Below, piece after piece: positions 26,177 to 50,753 of a stretch of 64,000 nt of DNA. The stretch spans positions 1 to 64,000 of the forward strand of contig NZ_SMLB01000001.1 of assembly GCF_004349105.1 (NCBI RefSeq), given 5' to 3'. The translations under genes and the position numbers were made by a program. The notes beneath the pieces were generated by a model. That model was given only the letters and a program-made list of their open reading frames with translations, did no database searches and was not told the DNA's origin. The stretch's first letter is position 1; each line of letters starts with the position of its first letter. Origin of the DNA: Jiangella aurantiaca. GTDB lineage: Bacteria > Actinomycetota > Actinomycetes > Jiangellales > Jiangellaceae.

Positions 26177-26290
26177 GCCAACCCCCCCGGCGCTCGTACC
26201 TCGCCCCACGGGCGCTCGCCCTCGCCCCCGCGCTCGCCCAGGCGCGCCCGCACCTCGCCCGCGTCTGTGGCGCCTCGCGCGCTGACGGAG
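26177..26290. other. Low-complexity spacer after purE
   Basis: No gene is supported here. From about 26190 to 26265 short blocks of GCGCTCG and CCTCGCCC recur irregularly, a degenerate purine/pyrimidine-skewed spacer. It runs directly into the 70-nt palindrome that starts at 26291. Confidence 0.5.
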
Positions 26291-26360
26291 CACTTCACTC
26301 GGCTGGGGACCGCATCCGCGCCAGAAACGGCGCTCATGCGGTCCCCAGACGAGCGAGGTG
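26291..26360. repeat. 70-nt palindromic repeat, family 1, copy 1
   Basis: A long hairpin. Outer arms start CACTTCACTCG (26291-26301) and end CGAGCGAGGTG (26350-26360). The perfect inner arms CTGGGGACCGCAT and ATGCGGTCCCCAG are followed inward by GCGCC/GGCGC around a six-base loop. A second copy of the same length is at 34930-34999 and a diverged one at 27562-27626. Copies 1 and 3 bracket the DUF559-type gene. Confidence 0.8.
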
Positions 26361-26473
26361 TACCTCGGCCGAGCGAGGACGGGGATATCCACAGGCCGGC
26401 ATGGTTCCGGCGGTTGTCCACAGATCGACCGCCGGCCCTGGTGCGCCACCGCTGCGACGACGACGCTGGGCCG

Positions 26474-27535
26474 GTGCCTGGACGACCCCGCCGGATTCCC
26501 GACGACATCGCCGAGCTCATCGAACGTGAGCACGGCGTGGTCGCGGTCGGCGTCGCCCGGGCCGCCGGCGTCGACCCGCGCCGGCTGCGGCGATTGCGCG
26601 ACGCCGGGCTGCTCACGGTGCTGCTTCCCGGCTGTTTCGCCGCCACGACCTCGTTCGATGACGAGTGGGAGGTGTTCCGTCTCGGCGCCCGTGCGTTCGC
26701 CGCTCACTGCGGACCGGCGGCACTCCTGACCGGCTGGTCCGCGGTGGTCACGTGGCGGCTCCCGGCGATCGGACGACCGCCGGCACGACACACCGCCGTG
26801 CGTCACGTCGCGGATGGTCACTCCGTACGGAACACGCCGTTCGGCGACCTGCGCGCCGTCACCCTCGCTCCGAACCACGCCCGCCGGACCAGCGGCGTGA
26901 ACGTGGTGAGCCGGGCCTGGGCGGTGGCCGATCTCGCGCGCACTGGGCCGATCCTGCCGGCGCTCGTCGCCGCGGACGCCGCCGCCGCGTTGGGGGCGGA
27001 CCTCGCCGACGCGCTGCGGTACATGTCGCATTGGCCAGGAGTCGGGCGGGCGCGGTGGGTGGCGGAGCACGCCGACCCAGGGGCGGAGTCGCCGCTGGAG
27101 ACGCTCGGGCGGTTCACGTGTCTGCAGTTCGACCTGCCGCTGCCGGTGTGCAACGCGTGGGTCGGCGAGGGCGGGCCCGAGTACCGGGTCGACGGTCTGT
27201 GGCCGTTCCACGGGGTGGTGTTCGAGGCCGATGGTGCGCTGAAGTACGACAACCGGCCCGATGCGTCGCGGATCGTGGCGCGGCAGGGTGAACGCGAGTG
27301 GCGGCTGCGGCGTCTGGGTCTCGACGTCGTCCGTTTCGGGTGGGACCTCGCCTGGCGGAACCGGGCGGAGCTGGCGGCGCGGTTCGCCGGGCTGCTGCGC
27401 GAGCACGCCGGGCGCGAGCGGCCGGTGCGCTGGTGGAAGCACGTACCAGGCGCCGGCGCCGTCGATCCCGAGCCGGCGGACTGGCCGTCGCCGAGTCCGA
27501 GCGGCATCGTCCTCCCGGCCGGCTGGGACCGGTGA
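26474..27535 (+). CDS. AbiEi-like winged-helix + DUF559-type nuclease-like protein
   Basis: A 353-residue protein with an N-terminal helix-turn-helix of the AbiEi-antitoxin-like type (EREHGVVAVGVARAAGVDPRRLRRLRDAG ... VLLPGCFAA), a middle part, and a C-terminal Vsr/DUF559-like fold at about residues 230-310. There VDGLWPFHGVVFEADG and the following RRLGLDVVRFGW show the D-x(n)-E-x-D arrangement of PD-(D/E)XK enzymes. The family is multi-copy in many actinobacteria and its function is unknown; no partner toxin gene is adjacent. GTG 26474 starts the conserved part, but in-frame starts lie upstream. Palindromes of one family sit on both sides. A second member is at 49631. Confidence 0.7.
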   Translation: MPGRPRRIPDDIAELIEREHGVVAVGVARAAGVDPRRLRRLRDAGLLTVLLPGCFAATTSFDDEWEVFRLGARAFAAHCGPAALLTGWSAVVTWRLPAIGRPPARHTAVRHVADGHSVRNTPFGDLRAVTLAPNHARRTSGVNVVSRAWAVADLARTGPILPALVAADAAAALGADLADALRYMSHWPGVGRARWVAEHADPGAESPLETLGRFTCLQFDLPLPVCNAWVGEGGPEYRVDGLWPFHGVVFEADGALKYDNRPDASRIVARQGEREWRLRRLGLDVVRFGWDLAWRNRAELAARFAGLLREHAGRERPVRWWKHVPGAGAVDPEPADWPSPSPSGIVLPAGWDR

Positions 27536-27905
27536 AGCGGCTGGCTCACGCGCCGTGACGACACGTCACCCGCCTGAGGACCGCATGCGGCCGCTTTGCG
27601 GCGTCCATGCGCCCTCGGCGCGGGTGGGGAGCGCGGCGGGCGGGTGAGGAGCGCGGCGGGCGACGGCCGCCGGTCCGGCCGGAAATTCGGTTGCGCGGGC
27701 GGGCGCCGAACCGGTTGGCTGGCCTCGCACACAGGAGCCGGAGTCGTGGAGACGTCCGGCGGAGGCGAAGGGAGGCGTGTCCGATGGCTGCCCACTCGAG
27801 GCGGCGCGCTGTCGCTTGCGCGCCATACCGCCCTCACTTCGCCGTTCCCACCGCCTGACGCCGAAACACACGCGGTGGGGACCTCCTCGTCAGGAGACCA
27901 CCGCA
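27536..27905. other. 370-bp repeat-rich gap before the RIO kinase
   Basis: No gene is supported. The gap holds the third family-1 palindrome (27562-27626) and a 20-bp tandem duplication with one mismatch (27621-27640 and 27641-27660). Near its end are small inverted repeats (CCACCGC/GCGGTGG and CCTGACG/CGTCAGG around 27850-27895) just before the kinase ribosome site. The frames here differ in codon use from neighbouring genes. Confidence 0.55.
27562..27626. repeat. Palindromic repeat, family 1, diverged copy 3
   Basis: The left arm (CACGTCACCCGCCTGAGGAC then CGCATGCG) matches copy 1 in all but about five of 28 positions. The right arm is degraded and shorter, keeping CATGCG and a final GCGGGTG that pairs with CACCCGC. 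It lies 26 bp after the DUF559-type stop codon. Confidence 0.6.
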
Positions 27906-34410: not shown

Positions 34411-34842
34411 TCAGAGCCCGAGCCGGGGCGCCTCGATGGCGGGGCAGGTGTCCATGACGACGTCCAGCCCGGCGGCCTTGGCCCGCTCAGCCGCCTCCTC
34501 GTCGATGACGCCCAGCTGCAGCCAGACGGCCCTGATGCCCAGCCGCTCCTTCTCCGCGATCGCGTCGTCGACCACCTCGCCGACCCGCCGGCTGTTCACG
34601 AAGCAGTCCACGACGTCCACCGGCCCCGGCACGTCGGCCAGCTTCTTGTAGCCGATCGCGCCGAGGGTGTCCTCGCCGCGCGGGTTCACCGGCACGATCG
34701 TCATGCCGAGGCGGTCGCCGAGGAACTGCGCGACCCCGTACGCGGCGCGCGCCGTGTTCTGCGACAACCCGACGACGGCCCAGGTGGCGGGGGTGGCAAG
34801 CAGCCGGCGGACGGTCTCGGGATCGTTCACGTGCGTGCTCAC
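34411..34842 (-). CDS. CoA-binding Rossmann protein (YccU-like)
   Basis: A 143-residue single-domain protein of the CoA_binding_2 family. WAVVGLSQNTARAAYGVAQFL is the nucleotide loop, IVPVNPRG the second strand, then VDVVDCFVNSRRVGEVVDDA, AVWLQLGVIDEEAAERAKAAGL and the terminal MDTCPAIE. The family binds CoA and in some species is linked to redox or CoA-thiol protection; no reaction is assigned. GTG 34842 was chosen; 34851 and 34830 are alternatives. The stop is five bases from the TrmB-type stop on the other strand. Confidence 0.83.
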   Translation of the reverse strand: MSTHVNDPETVRRLLATPATWAVVGLSQNTARAAYGVAQFLGDRLGMTIVPVNPRGEDTLGAIGYKKLADVPGPVDVVDCFVNSRRVGEVVDDAIAEKERLGIRAVWLQLGVIDEEAAERAKAAGLDVVMDTCPAIEAPRLGL

Positions 34843-34929
34843 TCCCTCCACCCTACGTCGGGTCTAGGATCGCCCGCATGGGCCGCCGTCCCTCGACGAA
34901 CACCGTGGTTTCTTCACTCGCTTCGTGGG

Positions 34930-34999
34930 CACTTCACCCGCCGGAGGACCGGATACCGCGCCGTTCCGGCCCTGGTGTGGTCTCGAAACGAGTGAGGTG
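34930..34999. repeat. 70-nt palindromic repeat, family 1, copy 2
   Basis: The same length and ends as copy 1: CACTTCACCCG at 34930-34940 pairs with CGAGTGAGGTG at 34989-34999, and GGACC/GGTC and ATACC/GGTGT pairings lie inside. The interior has diverged more than the ends. It lies 28 bp after the SMC-like gene's stop codon (in transcription direction), so it may also end that operon's transcript. No DUF559-type gene is beside this copy. Confidence 0.7.
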
Positions 35000-35026
35000 C
35001 ACACCGCCCGGGTGACAACGCCCGGT

Positions 35027-38000
35027 TCAGGCCGTGCCGGTCGACTCGACGTCGAGGGTGCCGGGGCGGTAGGAGGACATCCACGAGTGCAGCAGCTCGA
35101 CGCGGTCGGTGTTGGCGTCGTTGCCGACGACGACCGGCTCCTCGTTGTAGGCCATGGTGTCCGACCGGCGCCGCAGCTTGATGTAGAGGCCGGACGCCTC
35201 GATGGCGTAGCGCTCCATGTCGTCCTGCAGCGCGCCGACGACGGTGATGTTGTGGTCGTTGCCGATCCGCTCGAACAGGGCGACGGCCTCGCGGCGGTGC
35301 TGCTTGCCGAGGTTGCGGCCGAGCTCGTCGAGGATGAGCAGTAGCGGCCGGTCGCCGCCGCGGGCCAGCGCCGCGGCGCAGACCAGCTTGACCGCCTTCT
35401 CGTCCATCTGGGCGGTGTTGCTGCGCAGCGTGTAGGCGGACATCCGCTGGCCCTCGGCGCGGCGCCACTTCGGGCTGACCGTCCACCGCCACGGCTTGTC
35501 CGGCTCCGACGGCGGCTCGGGCTCGGGGTAGTCCAGGCCGGCGCCGTAGCCGCCGTACTCCTGGTCGAGCCGGTCGAACTCCGCGGCTACCTTACGAAGC
35601 ATCGTCTTGATGCCGGCGGCGAGCGACGTCCGGTGGGCGCGCACCGTCTGCTCGGCCTCGCTGTACCCGAGCCGGGCGGCGTCGAGGTCGGCGGTGCGGC
35701 GGGCCCGCTGCTCGGCGATCTGCTTGAGCTGGTGCCGGTCGTGGTCCTCGTGGTCGCGCAGGTGGGTGTCCAGCGCCCGCAGCAGCGCCGCGACCAGCGA
35801 GACCCGCGTCTCCAGGGCCGCGCCGGACCAGTTCGGCGTGACCAGCAGCTCGCGCAGCTCCGCGGTCAGCTCCTCCGGTGGGGTGCCGGGCGGGAAGCAG
35901 CGGACGGCGACCTCGTCGGTGAGGCGGGTGGCGTCCTCGTCCCAGGCCGTAGTGGTGCGGGTTTGCAGGTCGGCCTGGAGCTCGACGAGGTGCCGGCGGG
36001 CGGCGTCGGGGGAATCGCCCCAGGCCTTCTCGCGGTCGAGCAGGGCGAGGCGGTCGCGCTCCTCGGTCAGCGCGAACCGGTCGGCCTCCTTCTCGCGCAG
36101 CGTCTGCGTGAGCCGCTTGCGGGTGTCGCGGAGGCTGGTGATCCGCTCCTCGCGGGAGTTGTGCACACCCAGCTCGTGGGCGTAGGCGGCCTCGGCCTCG
36201 GTCAGCCCGGGGGCGAGCGCATCGCGGTGCTCCTGGCGCTCCGCGTTGGCCGCGCGCAGCTCGCCGATCTCGTCCTGCAACGCCTCGGCGCGCTCCGCGG
36301 CCTCGGCCGCCTTCGCCCGCGTCTCGGCGCGCGACAGCGCCGTCCGGGCCTGCTCGACCACCGCGGCCGCCGCGTCGAGGGACGCGGTCAGCTCGCGGTG
36401 CGCCTCCTGGGCGGCGGCGACGCGGGCCGGCTGGCCGGTGATCGGCTCGGCGAACCCGCCGATGGCCAGCACCCCGGCGGCTTCGTCGACGACGGCGCCC
36501 TTGCCGGCCCGCGCGGCGACGGCGTCGAGGAACGTCGACAGATCGAAGCCACCGGCAGCGACATTTCGGGGGTCGGCCAGCACCAGCAGCGACCCGGGCA
36601 GCCCGGCCAGCGCCTTCGCCGCCTTCGTCGCGTCCTTCCGGCCGACCACCACGGCCTCGCGGTACGGCGACAGCCGCGGCTCCCACGCGTCCCGCTCGGC
36701 GGGGTCGACGGCGACGACGTCGACCAGCGCCGCGGCGCCGAGACCGGCCGCGCGCAGCCGTTCCACCTGCTCCGCGGCGACGTCGTCGCCGGACTCGGCC
36801 GCCGCCATCCGGCGGGCCGCCTCGTTCGCCGCGGCCCGGGCCACCGCCTGCGCCGCGATCGCGTCCTCCAGCGCGGTCCGCGCCTCGGCCAGCTCCGCCG
36901 CGGCGACGTCCGGGGTGCGGCCGTCTGCGGCGCGTGCCTCGTCGGAGAGCTGGCGCTGCGTCGTCGTCAGGCGGTCGAGGTGCTGGGTGGCGGCCAGCTG
37001 GGCGGCCTCCAGCTCGCGGTCGCGGGCGATCAGTTCGTTGCGCTTGCGCTGGGCCGCCTCGAACCGGCGCGCGGACTCGTCGTCGTCGGTCAGCGCGGCC
37101 AGCCGGTCCTCGACCGCCTCGAGCTCCTGGCGCAGCGCCGCCTCGGTGTCGTCCAGCTCGGCCAGCGCCTGACGCAGCTCCGCCGCGCGCTCGACGCCGT
37201 CCAGCAGGTGCCGGGCGCAGCGCGACCGCCACGCCGTCCGCGCCTCGCCGAGCAGCTCCCTGGCCGCGAGCCGGCGGGCGATGCCGGCTTCGATGACCGC
37301 GACCTCGCTCTCCCACTCGGCGATCTGCCGCTCGGTCTCCTCGACCTCGCTGCGGTGCCGGTGCTCGGCCGAGCGGAGCACCTGCTCGTGCTCCAGCTCG
37401 CGGTCCAGTCCGGTGAGCGTGGCGATCGCGTCGAAGATCCGGTGCGGCGGGAGGTCGTTCAGAGGCTGGGCCAGCAGGTTCGCCGCCTGGCTGGACCGCA
37501 CCGACGTCGAGAGGAACGACACGCAGCGCGCGTTCTGCCCGAACAACACCCGCGACAGCTGACCGGCGTGGAAGTCGGTGCGGCCGTTGCTGCGCGGCAG
37601 TTGCCCCCACAGCTCGTCGACTCGCGCGGCCCGCTCGGACTCCGTCGCCCCATAGGGCACGTGCAGCCCACTGGTCCAGCGCAGGTCGAGGTAGGGCGCC
37701 TTGCGGTTGATCCGGAGCCAGACCGTGACGGCGTCGTCCTGCGGCGCGCTGCCGGGCGGCGCGAAGACGCCGATGACGTAGCCGCGGTCGACGTTGGACC
37801 AGCGGCCCTCCTGCGCGGCCAGCTCGGCGGTGAACAGCAGCTCGGCCGCGCCGGCGGCGCCGCTGGCCAGCTTCCACTGCTCGTCGGCATGCAGCAGGCT
37901 CAGCGCGGCGATGAACGAGGACTTCCCGGCGCCGTTGGAGTCCTTCGGCCCCTGCCCGGCGACGGTGACCAGGCCCTGGCCGATCATCGGGACCGGGTGG

Positions 38001-43695: not shown

Positions 43696-43710
43696 CCGGA
43701 CGGCCCGTTC

Positions 43711-43764
43711 CATGATCATCAAGGATTCGACACCCTATGGTGTGGTGGATACTTGATGATCATG
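43711..43764. repeat. 54-nt palindromic repeat, family 2, copy 1
   Basis: Arms CATGATCATCAAG (43711-43723) and CTTGATGATCATG (43752-43764) pair perfectly, with an ACACC/GGTGT inner stem. Two near-identical relatives are at 49605-49662 and 50661-50715. This copy stands alone between the ROK regulator and the ABC operon. Confidence 0.8.
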
Positions 43765-43865
43765 GGGCGGCGGATGGGCGGCTGCCCGGCACTTCTCGCC
43801 CAGCGCCAACCAGCCCCGATTCGGTAGCGGGTGTTACGGAAACGTGACTGCCGAGACTGGCAAGA

Positions 43866-48693: not shown

Positions 48694-49611
48694 ATGACGA
48701 CTGTGCGCACTCGGTCCGGGCCGGTCCGGCCTCGTCAGCTGGCCGGCGACGTGCTGGCGATCGGCCGGCCGTGGTTCTGGTTCGTCTCGCTCGTGCCGTA
48801 CTACCTGGGCGTCGTCCTGGCGACCCGTCGGGTGGTCCCGCCGGCGGCGGACTGGCCGGTGCTGGCGCTCGGCGCGGCGGTGATCGGCCCGCTGATGTGG
48901 ATCTCGGTGCTGGCCGTCAACGACGCGCACGACCTGCGCGGCGACCGGCTCAATCCGCGCAAGGCCGGATCGCCGCTGGTCGGCGGCCGGTTGACGCCGT
49001 TCGCGGCGCAGGTCGTGGCGCTGCTGGCCGGGGTGCTGGCGGTGGCCGCGGCACTGTTCGCCGGGCCGCTGTTCGCGCTCGGGACGGCGATCGTGCTCCT
49101 GGTCGGCTGGGCGTACAGCGCGCCGCCGCTGCGGCTGAAAGCGCGGCCGGGCTTCGACGTCACGGTCAACGCGCTGGCCATCGGGGCCGCCGGCCAGTTG
49201 GCCGGGTGGTCGTTGCTGCGGCCGCTCGCGGAGTTCCCGTGGCCGATGGCGGTGCTCGGGACGCTGGTGGGCGCCGCGCTGTACGTCCCAACGACGCTGG
49301 CCGACCTCGAGGCGGACCGGAGCAGCGGCTACACGACCGTGGCCGTGCGACTCGGCCCGCGGCGGGCGTACCTGCTCGGGCTCGGGCTGTGGCTGGCGGC
49401 CGGGACGTTGTCGCTGGTCATGTCGGCCGCGGACGTGGTGATCCCGCGGTCGATGCTGCCGATGGAGATCGTCCTGGTGCCGCTGCTGGTGCTCGCGTAC
49501 CGGCGGCTGGTCCGGGCCGAGCGCAGCTTCCGCGGGATCATCGCGGTCGCCGTCCTGTTCATGGTGCCGAGCCTGACGTTCGTCCTCACCTACACCGGCA
49601 CGCTCCCGTGA
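48694..49611 (+). CDS. UbiA-family prenyltransferase
   Basis: A 305-residue membrane protein with about eight helices. The first Asp-rich motif is NDAHDLRGDRLNPRK and the second DLEADRSSGYTT, which hold magnesium and the prenyl diphosphate. Both are complete, so it should be active. The aromatic or lipid acceptor is unknown and no quinone or terpenoid gene is adjacent. Its TGA (49609-49611) lies inside the left arm of a palindrome. Confidence 0.88.
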   Translation: MTTVRTRSGPVRPRQLAGDVLAIGRPWFWFVSLVPYYLGVVLATRRVVPPAADWPVLALGAAVIGPLMWISVLAVNDAHDLRGDRLNPRKAGSPLVGGRLTPFAAQVVALLAGVLAVAAALFAGPLFALGTAIVLLVGWAYSAPPLRLKARPGFDVTVNALAIGAAGQLAGWSLLRPLAEFPWPMAVLGTLVGAALYVPTTLADLEADRSSGYTTVAVRLGPRRAYLLGLGLWLAAGTLSLVMSAADVVIPRSMLPMEIVLVPLLVLAYRRLVRAERSFRGIIAVAVLFMVPSLTFVLTYTGTLP

Positions 49612-49662
49612 TCATCAAGGATCGACCACGTCATGATGGGATCGATCCTTGATGATCACGGG
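49605..49662. repeat. 58-nt palindromic repeat, family 2, copy 2
   Basis: Perfect 21-bp arms, 49605-49625 and 49642-49662 (core GTGATCATCAAGGATCGA and its complement), enclose a 16-nt loop. The stop codons of UbiA (in the left arm) and of the DUF559-type gene (in the loop) both fall within it. It may serve as a bidirectional terminator. Confidence 0.85.
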
Positions 49663-50596
49663 ACGGGTGGGGGCAGGACGGGCCGCACGACCGCGGGCGC
49701 CGGGTCCAGCCGCGGGCTCGGAGGACGCGGGCCTGTTCGGCGGCGACGCCGCACGGGTCGCCGAAGACGTCGGCGTGGCCGTAGCGCAGCGTGGCATGGC
49801 CGTCGACGGTGGCGCGGTTGTCGCGGTGTCGGTCGCGGAAGCGTCCTTCGCCGGTGTGGCCGATGCGGCCGTCCAGCTCGACTCGTAGGCGGTATTCGGG
49901 GTAGTCGACGTCGATCCAGATGACGCGGTTGCCGGCGATGCGGCGTTGCCGGTGGCCGGTGGGAAGCCCGTGGGCGCGTTCGACCCGGCGCAGGTGGCGT
50001 AGTTCCAGCGGCGACTGGGCCCCGTCGGCGACGTCGGCGAGCATCGCTTCGACCATCGCGCGCCAGCGGATCTTCTTCCGCCGGCCCAGCGCGTCAGCGA
50101 GTCGCTCGGGAGTGGTCAGGCGGCGTTGGCAGGCGGCGGTCACCCAGGTCTCGGCCTCGCGTGGGCGCGGTGCGACGTCGACGAGGTCGAGCACGGTCTC
50201 TTCCACCCGGGTCCGTGGTGGTGTCGCGGCGGGGTGCCGGGTCCGCGCCAGTCGGTGCGCGAAATGGACCCGGACTCCGTCGATGCGAGGCTCCACGTAC
50301 CGGTCGGCGGGCACGGTCACGTGGATGACCGGGCCGGGATCGTCGCACAGACCGTCGAGGTAGGCGGCGGTGCGGTGACTTGCCACGGAGCCTGGGCCGG
50401 CGCGCAGGATCGCCGCCCACACCCACGCGAGATAGGGCAGCGGGCCGGAGAACGTGGCGTACACGCCGAGGTGAACGCGCTGCCAGCGGCCGGACGAGAC
50501 CAGCCACTCCAACCGGCGATCCGTCAGGCGGCAGGCGTGCGCCTGAGCACGGCTGATCACGCCCTGCTGCGATGCCAGGAGGTCGTCGAGATCCAC
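49631..50596 (-). CDS. AbiEi-like winged-helix + DUF559-type nuclease-like protein (second member)
   Basis: A 321-residue relative of the protein at 26474. The N-terminal part is LLASQQGVISRAQAHACRLTDRRLEWLVSSGRWQRVHLGVYA, an AbiEi-like winged helix. The C-terminal Vsr/DUF559 fold has VIWIDVDYPEYRLRVELDGRIGH, with Asp and Glu-x-Asp as expected for a PD-(D/E)XK site, then RDRHRDNRATVDG. The last residues (SRDHQGSIPS) are encoded by the palindrome at 49605-49662. GTG 50596 starts it; no clear ribosome site is seen. A second copy of the palindrome is upstream. Function unknown; no toxin partner is adjacent. Confidence 0.7.
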   Translation of the reverse strand: MDLDDLLASQQGVISRAQAHACRLTDRRLEWLVSSGRWQRVHLGVYATFSGPLPYLAWVWAAILRAGPGSVASHRTAAYLDGLCDDPGPVIHVTVPADRYVEPRIDGVRVHFAHRLARTRHPAATPPRTRVEETVLDLVDVAPRPREAETWVTAACQRRLTTPERLADALGRRKKIRWRAMVEAMLADVADGAQSPLELRHLRRVERAHGLPTGHRQRRIAGNRVIWIDVDYPEYRLRVELDGRIGHTGEGRFRDRHRDNRATVDGHATLRYGHADVFGDPCGVAAEQARVLRARGWTRRPRSCGPSCPHPSRDHQGSIPS

Positions 50597-50660
50597 GCAT
50601 GTCAGCGTGCGTGAGTCGGCGCCGTCGCGCCAGGCCCGGTTCGCCACCTGTGGATAAACC

Positions 50661-50715
50661 ATGATCATCAAGGATCGACCACGTCATGACGGGGTCAATC
50701 CTTGATGATCACGGG
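50661..50715. repeat. Palindromic repeat, family 2, copy 3
   Basis: Nearly identical to copy 2, in the same orientation, with two mismatches between its arms (ATGATCATCAAGGATCGA against TCAATCCTTGATGATCAC). It lies 65 bp upstream of the DUF559-type start and 39 bp after the stop of the garR-like gene. Confidence 0.82.
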
Positions 50716-50753
50716 AGATCTCGGCGTTCGCACGCTCCAGCTGCGCTCTACCG

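Follow-up and report, generated by a model that had tools for sequence, protein, structure and literature searches.

Palindromes paired with genes for AbiEi-like proteins carrying a predicted nuclease fold in Jiangella: a possible counterpart of the REP/RAYT systems

The Jiangella group comprises soil actinobacteria. In the 64,000 nucleotides of a Jiangella genome analysed here (the window), two paralogous genes, A and B, each lie between long palindromes, and the palindromes of the two genes belong to different families. What links these genes to the palindromes around them, and might the proteins have a part in the spread of the palindromes? In the following, G000 denotes the window's genome and G001 to G011 the related Jiangella genomes, 12 genomes of the genus in all.

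Genes A and B, their palindromes and their predicted proteins

The features of the first locus, and one family-1 palindrome at a distance from it, are as follows.

26291-26360, no strand: palindrome a (family 1), 5' of gene A, with an imperfect, gapped extension over 26273-26378
26474-27535, plus strand: gene A, 353 amino acids, between palindromes a and b
27560-27634, no strand: palindrome b (family 1), 3' of gene A, weaker and offset, matched by model R3
34926-35005, no strand: palindrome c (family 1), without an adjoining gene-A homologue, matched by model R3

Gene A is a GTG-start open reading frame (ORF), the start position of which is backed by the alignment of homologues, and its neighbours by Pfam are purE (AIR carboxylase) and a RIO-domain kinase gene. 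Palindrome a, which ranks in the window's top three ungapped hairpins by strength, is situated some 110-180 nt 5' of this start, and palindromes b and c resemble it when aligned. BLAST with palindrome a alone returned only the self-match, and an exact family-1 pattern occurred at four places, of which the one on contig C69 is not a family member by eye; the divergence of the family-1 copies called for covariance models. Palindromes a, b and c served as the training set of model R1, so that its matches at those three are circular; it was therefore replaced there by R3, built independently from 17 dispersed family-1 copies of other genomes only, none of them within a 3-kb locus containing a gene-A homologue. 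In a search space of 433,898 bases, consisting of the window and the purE regions of 11 related genomes, R3 recovered palindrome a (26287-26366, 63.3 bits, E 5e-13), palindrome b (37.6 bits, E 1.3e-6, with b outside the training set) and palindrome c (64.5 bits, E 2.6e-13), with no other match below E 0.3 in the 64-kb window. The statement of the preliminary description that gene A has family-1 palindromes on both sides is thus confirmed by a model trained elsewhere. At E<1e-3, R3 detected nine family-1 sites in 434 kb, namely a, b and c, two in G005 and one each in G008, G010 and G006 beside gene A, and one extra in G006; seven of the nine adjoin gene A, some of these seven being shared by descent.

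Rfam gave no family at the gathering threshold over the window. A reading of family 1 as RNA structure was set aside, since in the 17 dispersed copies the arms were conserved in sequence and the covariation term of 0.15 gave no support; the covariation score was 0.129 versus a shuffled mean of 0.101, with 11 of 500 shuffles as high. As judged from the alignment, this arm conservation would favour a symmetric DNA site.

The second locus, with a solo copy of its palindrome, contains the following features.

43710-43767, no strand: palindrome d (family 2), solo copy
49604-49663, no strand: palindrome e (family 2, TGATCATCAAGGATCGACC...), on the 3' side of gene B
49631-50671, minus strand: gene B, ORF, AbiEi-like and DUF559-like
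50659-50716, no strand: palindrome f (family 2), on the 5' side of gene B

The true start of gene B is probably inside the ORF, since palindrome f overlaps the first codons. Its neighbours by Pfam are UbiA and hydroxyisobutyrate dehydrogenase genes, and the bracketing palindromes, with TGATCAT ends, form a family unrelated to family 1. The pattern TGATCATN{18,56}ATGATCA occurred 24 to 136 times per genome in the 12 Jiangella genomes, and its reversed control 0 times in all 12. A whole or partial TGATCA palindrome was found near the gene in 29 of 30 B-type loci, the exception being a distant homologue (L102); many of these loci were palindromic on both sides, usually with one inner type. The earlier view of two paralogues, each with its own hairpin family, holds, and the gene B pattern recurs over 30 loci.

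At some B loci of G002 and G003 the palindromes are interrupted. Specifically, they are split mid-way by foreign sequence whose ends recur (GAGCCTGTTGC..., ...AATGCCGTTAAGTTAGGGCGG), in L082 near 1253 and 2495, in L104 near 1497 and 2501, in L096 near 1485 and in L081 near 2496; from the sequences, it looks as if the palindrome centre were targeted by an insertion sequence. Palindromes of the TGATCATGGAGAAGGTCGG form are the commonest listed TGATCAT subfamily in G002 and stood beside no B-type gene among the loci fetched.

The gene A protein is predicted to consist of a winged-HTH/AbiEi-like N-terminal half (about residues 1-200) and a nuclease fold of the Vsr/EDxHD type (about residues 205-313). 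Its AlphaFold2 model had a pLDDT of 90.7; that of the gene B protein, at 73.6, is of low confidence. The N-terminal half matched the AbiEi antitoxin 6y8q (Foldseek E 5e-7; Z 8.6) and Rv2827c (1zel). For residues 206-313 of the predicted model, the best fold was the catalytic domain of I-Bth0305I (3r3p; Z 9.7 over 97 residues, 2.4 A), followed by NGO0050 (Z 9.3) and Vsr (1cw0; Z 7.5). It is because of this predicted fold that the C-terminal half is regarded as Vsr/DUF559-like; Pfam found only AbiEi_4 in gene A (29.8 bits), and in gene B AbiEi_4 plus DUF559 below the cut-off (13.7 versus 20.6 bits). The designation of gene A as a DUF559-type gene in the preliminary description is thus apt for the predicted fold but not as a Pfam label, as gene A had no match to DUF559 (PF04480) and neither gene reached its gathering score. 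Searches of PDB sequences with a gene-A profile and of NCBIfam gave nothing at E<=1, PADLOC returned AbiEi models only, and plasmid records held no gene-A homologue at 1e-8. In the gene A family, D240, D253 and K257 were present in 19 of 19 sequences and E251 in 18 of 19; in the gene B family, D254, E265, D267 and H272 were present in all 21. From fold and conservation together, these acidic, lysine and histidine residues are probably catalytic, and in the predicted model the gene A protein joins an AbiEi-antitoxin-like half to a nuclease fold like that of Vsr and I-Bth0305I.

Given this kinship with AbiEi, autoregulation by way of the 5' palindrome is a serious competing explanation, or could be an additional role. 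The antitoxins AbiEi and Rv2827c are described as binding inverted repeats in their own promoters (PMC7319586). By analogy, the palindrome would be an operator for autorepression by the AbiEi-like protein, the scattered copies would be further operators or decoys of a regulon, and the nuclease half would do something else. The position of palindrome a upstream of gene A and the conserved, little covarying arms of the dispersed family-1 copies, as for a DNA site, agree with this, and the kinship with AbiEi is just as compatible with the upstream hairpin serving in regulation. The arrangements described below argue against it at three points, and as a full account we consider it unlikely.

Pairing of hairpin type with the recognition half

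Gene A adjoins purE in all 12 genomes of the genus and is therefore a resident gene in Jiangella; that it is fixed there and not a newcomer was absent from the preliminary description. The purE-locus gene has broken frames in G001 and the opposite orientation in G002, and in G011 it was matched only from residue 100. Gene A has thus stayed put within the genus, which counts against mobility of gene A itself.

The hairpin type at the purE locus varies between genomes. Family 1 stands beside gene A in G000, G005, G008 and G010, and a related form, CACGTCACTCG, in G006; family 3 (GGATACTCccGAAACCGGCGC and variants) lies 3' of the gene in G009, G003, G004, G001 and G007, and a CCGTCTTC form lies 5' of it in G007 and G011. 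The G002 gene has no hairpin, a point against the pairing. The family-3 hairpins are found downstream of the gene, in many cases 2-15 nt past the stop codon, a position that speaks against an operator. In the window and G005, gene A has hairpins on both flanks; for its other homologues, detection was often limited to one side. Where two hairpins were detected, the likeness between sides was clear at L209 (0.93) and L215 (0.39) and weak at L049 (0.26) and L050 (0.29), and there was none at L064 (0.11) and L074 (0.19). Tandem GCCGTCTTC units constitute a third hairpin type, 5' of gene A in G007 (L064, upstream 1294-1371) and at the G011 purE locus, so that in G007 two types surround one gene, with the GCCGTCTTC type 5' and family 3 on the 3' side. 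In all, there are well over a dozen hairpin families.

By its N-terminal half, gene A falls into clades, one of which goes with family-1 hairpins and a different one with family-3 hairpins; this holds at unrelated loci too. We compared hairpin distances with those of each protein half by Mantel tests, the p-values of which treat loci as exchangeable and ignore phylogeny. For the N-terminal half of the A proteins, the correlation was r 0.46 (p 3e-4) across the 29 genes, out of 31, that had a hairpin, r 0.58 in the 14 Jiangella genes and r 0.87 (p 7e-4) at the purE locus (n=9); for the nuclease half, the corresponding values were 0.20 (p 0.007), 0.18 (p 0.04) and 0.23 (p 0.13, not significant). 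L053 and L065 were left out, having no hairpin of score 14; the L051 hairpin was entered by hand, and the weaker 3' hairpin of L049 was kept though below the threshold. For the B family, 30 loci (29 B-type loci without L102, plus L007) gave r 0.58 for the N-terminal half and 0.24 for the nuclease half, and without the outlier L007 these values became 0.49 (p 3e-4) and 0.03 (p 0.34); arm candidates reading outward from the palindromes had been removed by rule and by hand. In addition, the nearest protein neighbour had the same palindrome type at 24 of 30 B loci, as against 13% of all pairs. Since hairpin distance tracks the N-terminal half, and the nuclease half not or much less, the palindrome follows the recognition half, and these comparisons place the pairing, as it appears, in the recognition domain rather than in the whole enzyme. 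The suggestion of co-evolving enzyme/repeat pairs is supported, as the purE locus illustrates; the covariance models and the correlation of repeat family with subclade, which had been proposed as a check, were carried out within Jiangella and revealed the pairing.

The two halves also differ in conservation. Among the 14 Jiangella A proteins, mean identity was 55% for the N-terminal half and 83% for the nuclease part, and in 90 of 91 pairs the former had the lower conservation. Gene A and a family-3 paralogue on contig C64 of the same genome (G000:C64:14369-15430, L061) have nearly identical C-terminal halves and strongly different N-terminal halves, which suggests that their nuclease halves may have been homogenised by gene conversion.

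Homologues of gene A outside Jiangella were found in Haloactinopolyspora alba, four Phytoactinopolyspora species and Hoyosella altamirensis. For these other genera, a hairpin scoring at least 17.5 was present in the scanned flanks of 10 of 11 A-type loci, the exception being a fragment. For a BLAST cross-test, a single query was assembled from nine different hairpins flanking the genes in six genomes that represent three other genera, and the six genomes gave 42, 17, 73, 34, 16 and 5 matches (187 rows); among the matches listed, all fell on the gene hairpin or hairpins of the genome itself, in six of six genomes. The association of repeat and gene proposed from the window alone thus extends to other genomes.

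These results bear on the possibility that the hairpins are terminators or general intergenic repeats lying near these genes by coincidence. Strong hairpins are common at 72% GC: 14 of 700 sampled 350-nt windows (from purE regions, some holding the elements themselves) scored at least 17.5, and within the 64-kb window 12 of 120 such sampled stretches scored at least 14. Chance would leave unexplained, however, the sequence-specific families and their coupling to one protein half, as well as the hairpins at 10 of the 11 A-type loci outside Jiangella, and the cross-test matches, among those listed, are the opposite of chance expectation; we regard coincidence as highly improbable.

Dispersal and signs of movement

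In the window's genome, R1 gave 53 family-1 strand-matches at E<=0.1 and, as palindromic sites usually match both strands, the number of places is about half of this. Palindrome c, which had been described as a free copy at 34930-34999, is thus a genuine family member but one of many. For G001 to G011, the R1 strand-matches at E<=0.1 numbered 6, 60, 17, 1, 47, 26, 19, 70, 47, 5 and 8. Model R2 for family 3 gave 29 matches in G000 at E<=0.01, and 28, 22, 44, 1, 14, 0, 44, 8, 9, 0 and 6 in G001 to G011; of the five hairpins that R2 finds at the purE locus, four belong to its training set, so that only the G004 hairpin and two places in G008 beside A fragments are independent. Family 3 had no match in G006 and G010, in which the only close A homologue belongs to clade 1, one match in G004, and 6-44 matches in the other nine genomes, where an A gene or gene fragment of clade 2, or one related to it, was seen; its copy number follows the cognate gene. 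Family 1 fits gene presence less well, being plentiful in G002 (60) and present in G007 (19), where no clade-1 gene was seen, and sparse in G010 (5 strand-matches) though a clade-1 gene is present; this is a point against spread by the protein.

Presence and absence at matching sites were observed. Palindrome c is absent from the matching place in G006, palindrome d from the corresponding place in G002, and the solo family-1 copy at G000:C13:11535 from G002 and G005, with a different hairpin at its place in G008. The whole B unit is absent from G007, G011 and G006, where 12-18 nt lie between the flanking alignments and no palindrome is left. The junctions that were read showed no recognisable target-site duplication, a point against the spread proposed below; the junctions at L162 and L163 were too diverged for a clean reading.

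At six places G002 contains composites of a family-3 copy and an adjoining family-1 copy; going by coordinates, the spacing is about 33 nt in five of the six. Three aligned composites share about 300 nt at 81-84% identity, with a sharp end at the outer family-1 edge. Neither these composites with constant spacing nor the gain and loss of B genes as a unit with palindromes on both sides would be explained by a regulon of operators.

At window positions 34842-35046, most relatives carry extra genes that the window's genome lacks, with palindrome c at the breakpoint. The c locus as the remnant of a lost DUF559 gene was ruled out, as other genomes carry different genes there, one of them proline iminopeptidase-like by eye. 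At the place of window positions 43700-43830, where the window has palindrome d, G004 and G006 carry an element of about 300 nt with long inverted ends containing TGATCA (AATGATCACGT...ACGTGATCATT; L125 and L127), which also occurs at the end of a G009 stretch (L229); by its ends, it appears to represent another family of MITE-like elements.

A second rival, homing, is suggested by the homing-endonuclease fold. Here the palindrome would be the target of a homing nuclease, and breaks at gene-free palindromes would be repaired from a gene-bearing copy, so that the gene would pass from palindrome to palindrome, the palindromes themselves arising otherwise. The full-length I-Bth0305I is reported to dimerise on a target of nearly 60 bp (PMC3943268). 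Its catalytic domain is the closest fold to the nuclease half in the predicted model of gene A, and whole palindromes of a single type bracket the B genes, both as homing would have it. Yet the three empty B sites read at the junction all lack a palindrome, gene A is always at one locus, and the spread of solo palindromes would go unexplained; homing seems to us decidedly improbable.

Comparison with known systems and a proposed mode of spread

In the published account of REP/RAYT, the RAYT gene always lies between two REPs, gene and REP co-evolve, and the abundance of the cognate REP follows the gene (PMC2817692); GTAG and CGTC tags are named for REPs (PMC3733652). The Jiangella systems resemble this in having cognate palindromes on both sides of the gene (usually in the B family; for gene A, in the window and G005), many dispersed cognate palindromes in gene-bearing genomes (with G010, G002 and G007 as exceptions for family 1) and co-evolution of gene and palindrome in the Mantel tests, and their composite arrangements recall BIMEs and REPINs. 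They differ in that no Y1/HUH (IS200/IS605-type) transposase domain was detected here, the AbiEi-like and Vsr/EDxHD folds standing in its place, and in that the palindromes measure about 50-120 nt, compared with the 20-40 bp given for REPs (PMC3733652). With three RAYT features in outline and an unrelated enzyme, the system is not RAYT but works like it. The N-terminal half also resembles the AbiE type IV toxin-antitoxin systems, in its fold (6y8q) and in Pfam AbiEi_4; in contrast to these, a nuclease domain is fused behind it, no DUF1814 nucleotidyltransferase toxin gene was found among the Pfam-tested neighbours of genes A and B, and the palindromes are dispersed. With the EDxHD homing endonuclease I-Bth0305I and with Vsr, the predicted model shares the catalytic fold and the fusion of a DNA-binding region to the nuclease, but the DNA-binding part is AbiEi-like, no intron was noticed, and the palindromes are long and dispersed. 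To our knowledge, no known palindrome-spreading system has this enzyme class or, most likely, this chemistry, the organisation being that of REP/RAYT. In literature searches covering open-licence papers, no listing showed this nuclease/palindrome system.

We consider it probable that gene A and its palindromes constitute a nuclease/palindrome pair that works like REP/RAYT, with protein-assisted spread and an unrelated enzyme. The pairing, the dispersal, the presence or absence at matching sites and the conserved residues of the nuclease fold are observations; binding, cutting and a driving role of the protein in the spread are inferred from them. On this proposal, the winged-helix/AbiEi-like N-terminal half would bind a long inverted repeat specific to its lineage, and the C-terminal Vsr/EDxHD-type nuclease would cut or nick DNA at the bound palindrome. 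Cutting at or beside the palindrome may promote its copying into further intergenic positions through repair or recombination and, in the B family, whole palindrome-gene-palindrome units may be copied likewise. The gene with its flanking palindromes would then be the autonomous form, and solo palindromes non-autonomous copies or relics. Whenever the recognition half changes, the favoured palindrome would change too, so that each lineage would come to own one repeat family. Beyond gene A, we lean slightly towards a second class of palindrome-spreading systems that is independent of REP/RAYT and employs a Vsr/EDxHD nuclease guided by an AbiEi-type domain, in which recognition half and repeat co-diversify around an unchanging nuclease half, shared between paralogues or homogenised among them.

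If this is true, REP-like palindromes go with more than one class of enzyme, and an antitoxin-type-guided nuclease has reached the same lifestyle as RAYT. The families would also provide many natural pairs of DNA-recognition domain and long palindrome for learning how winged-helix/AbiEi domains read DNA, and would suggest a function for the AbiEi/DUF559-like proteins, of which these actinobacteria have several paralogues per genome.
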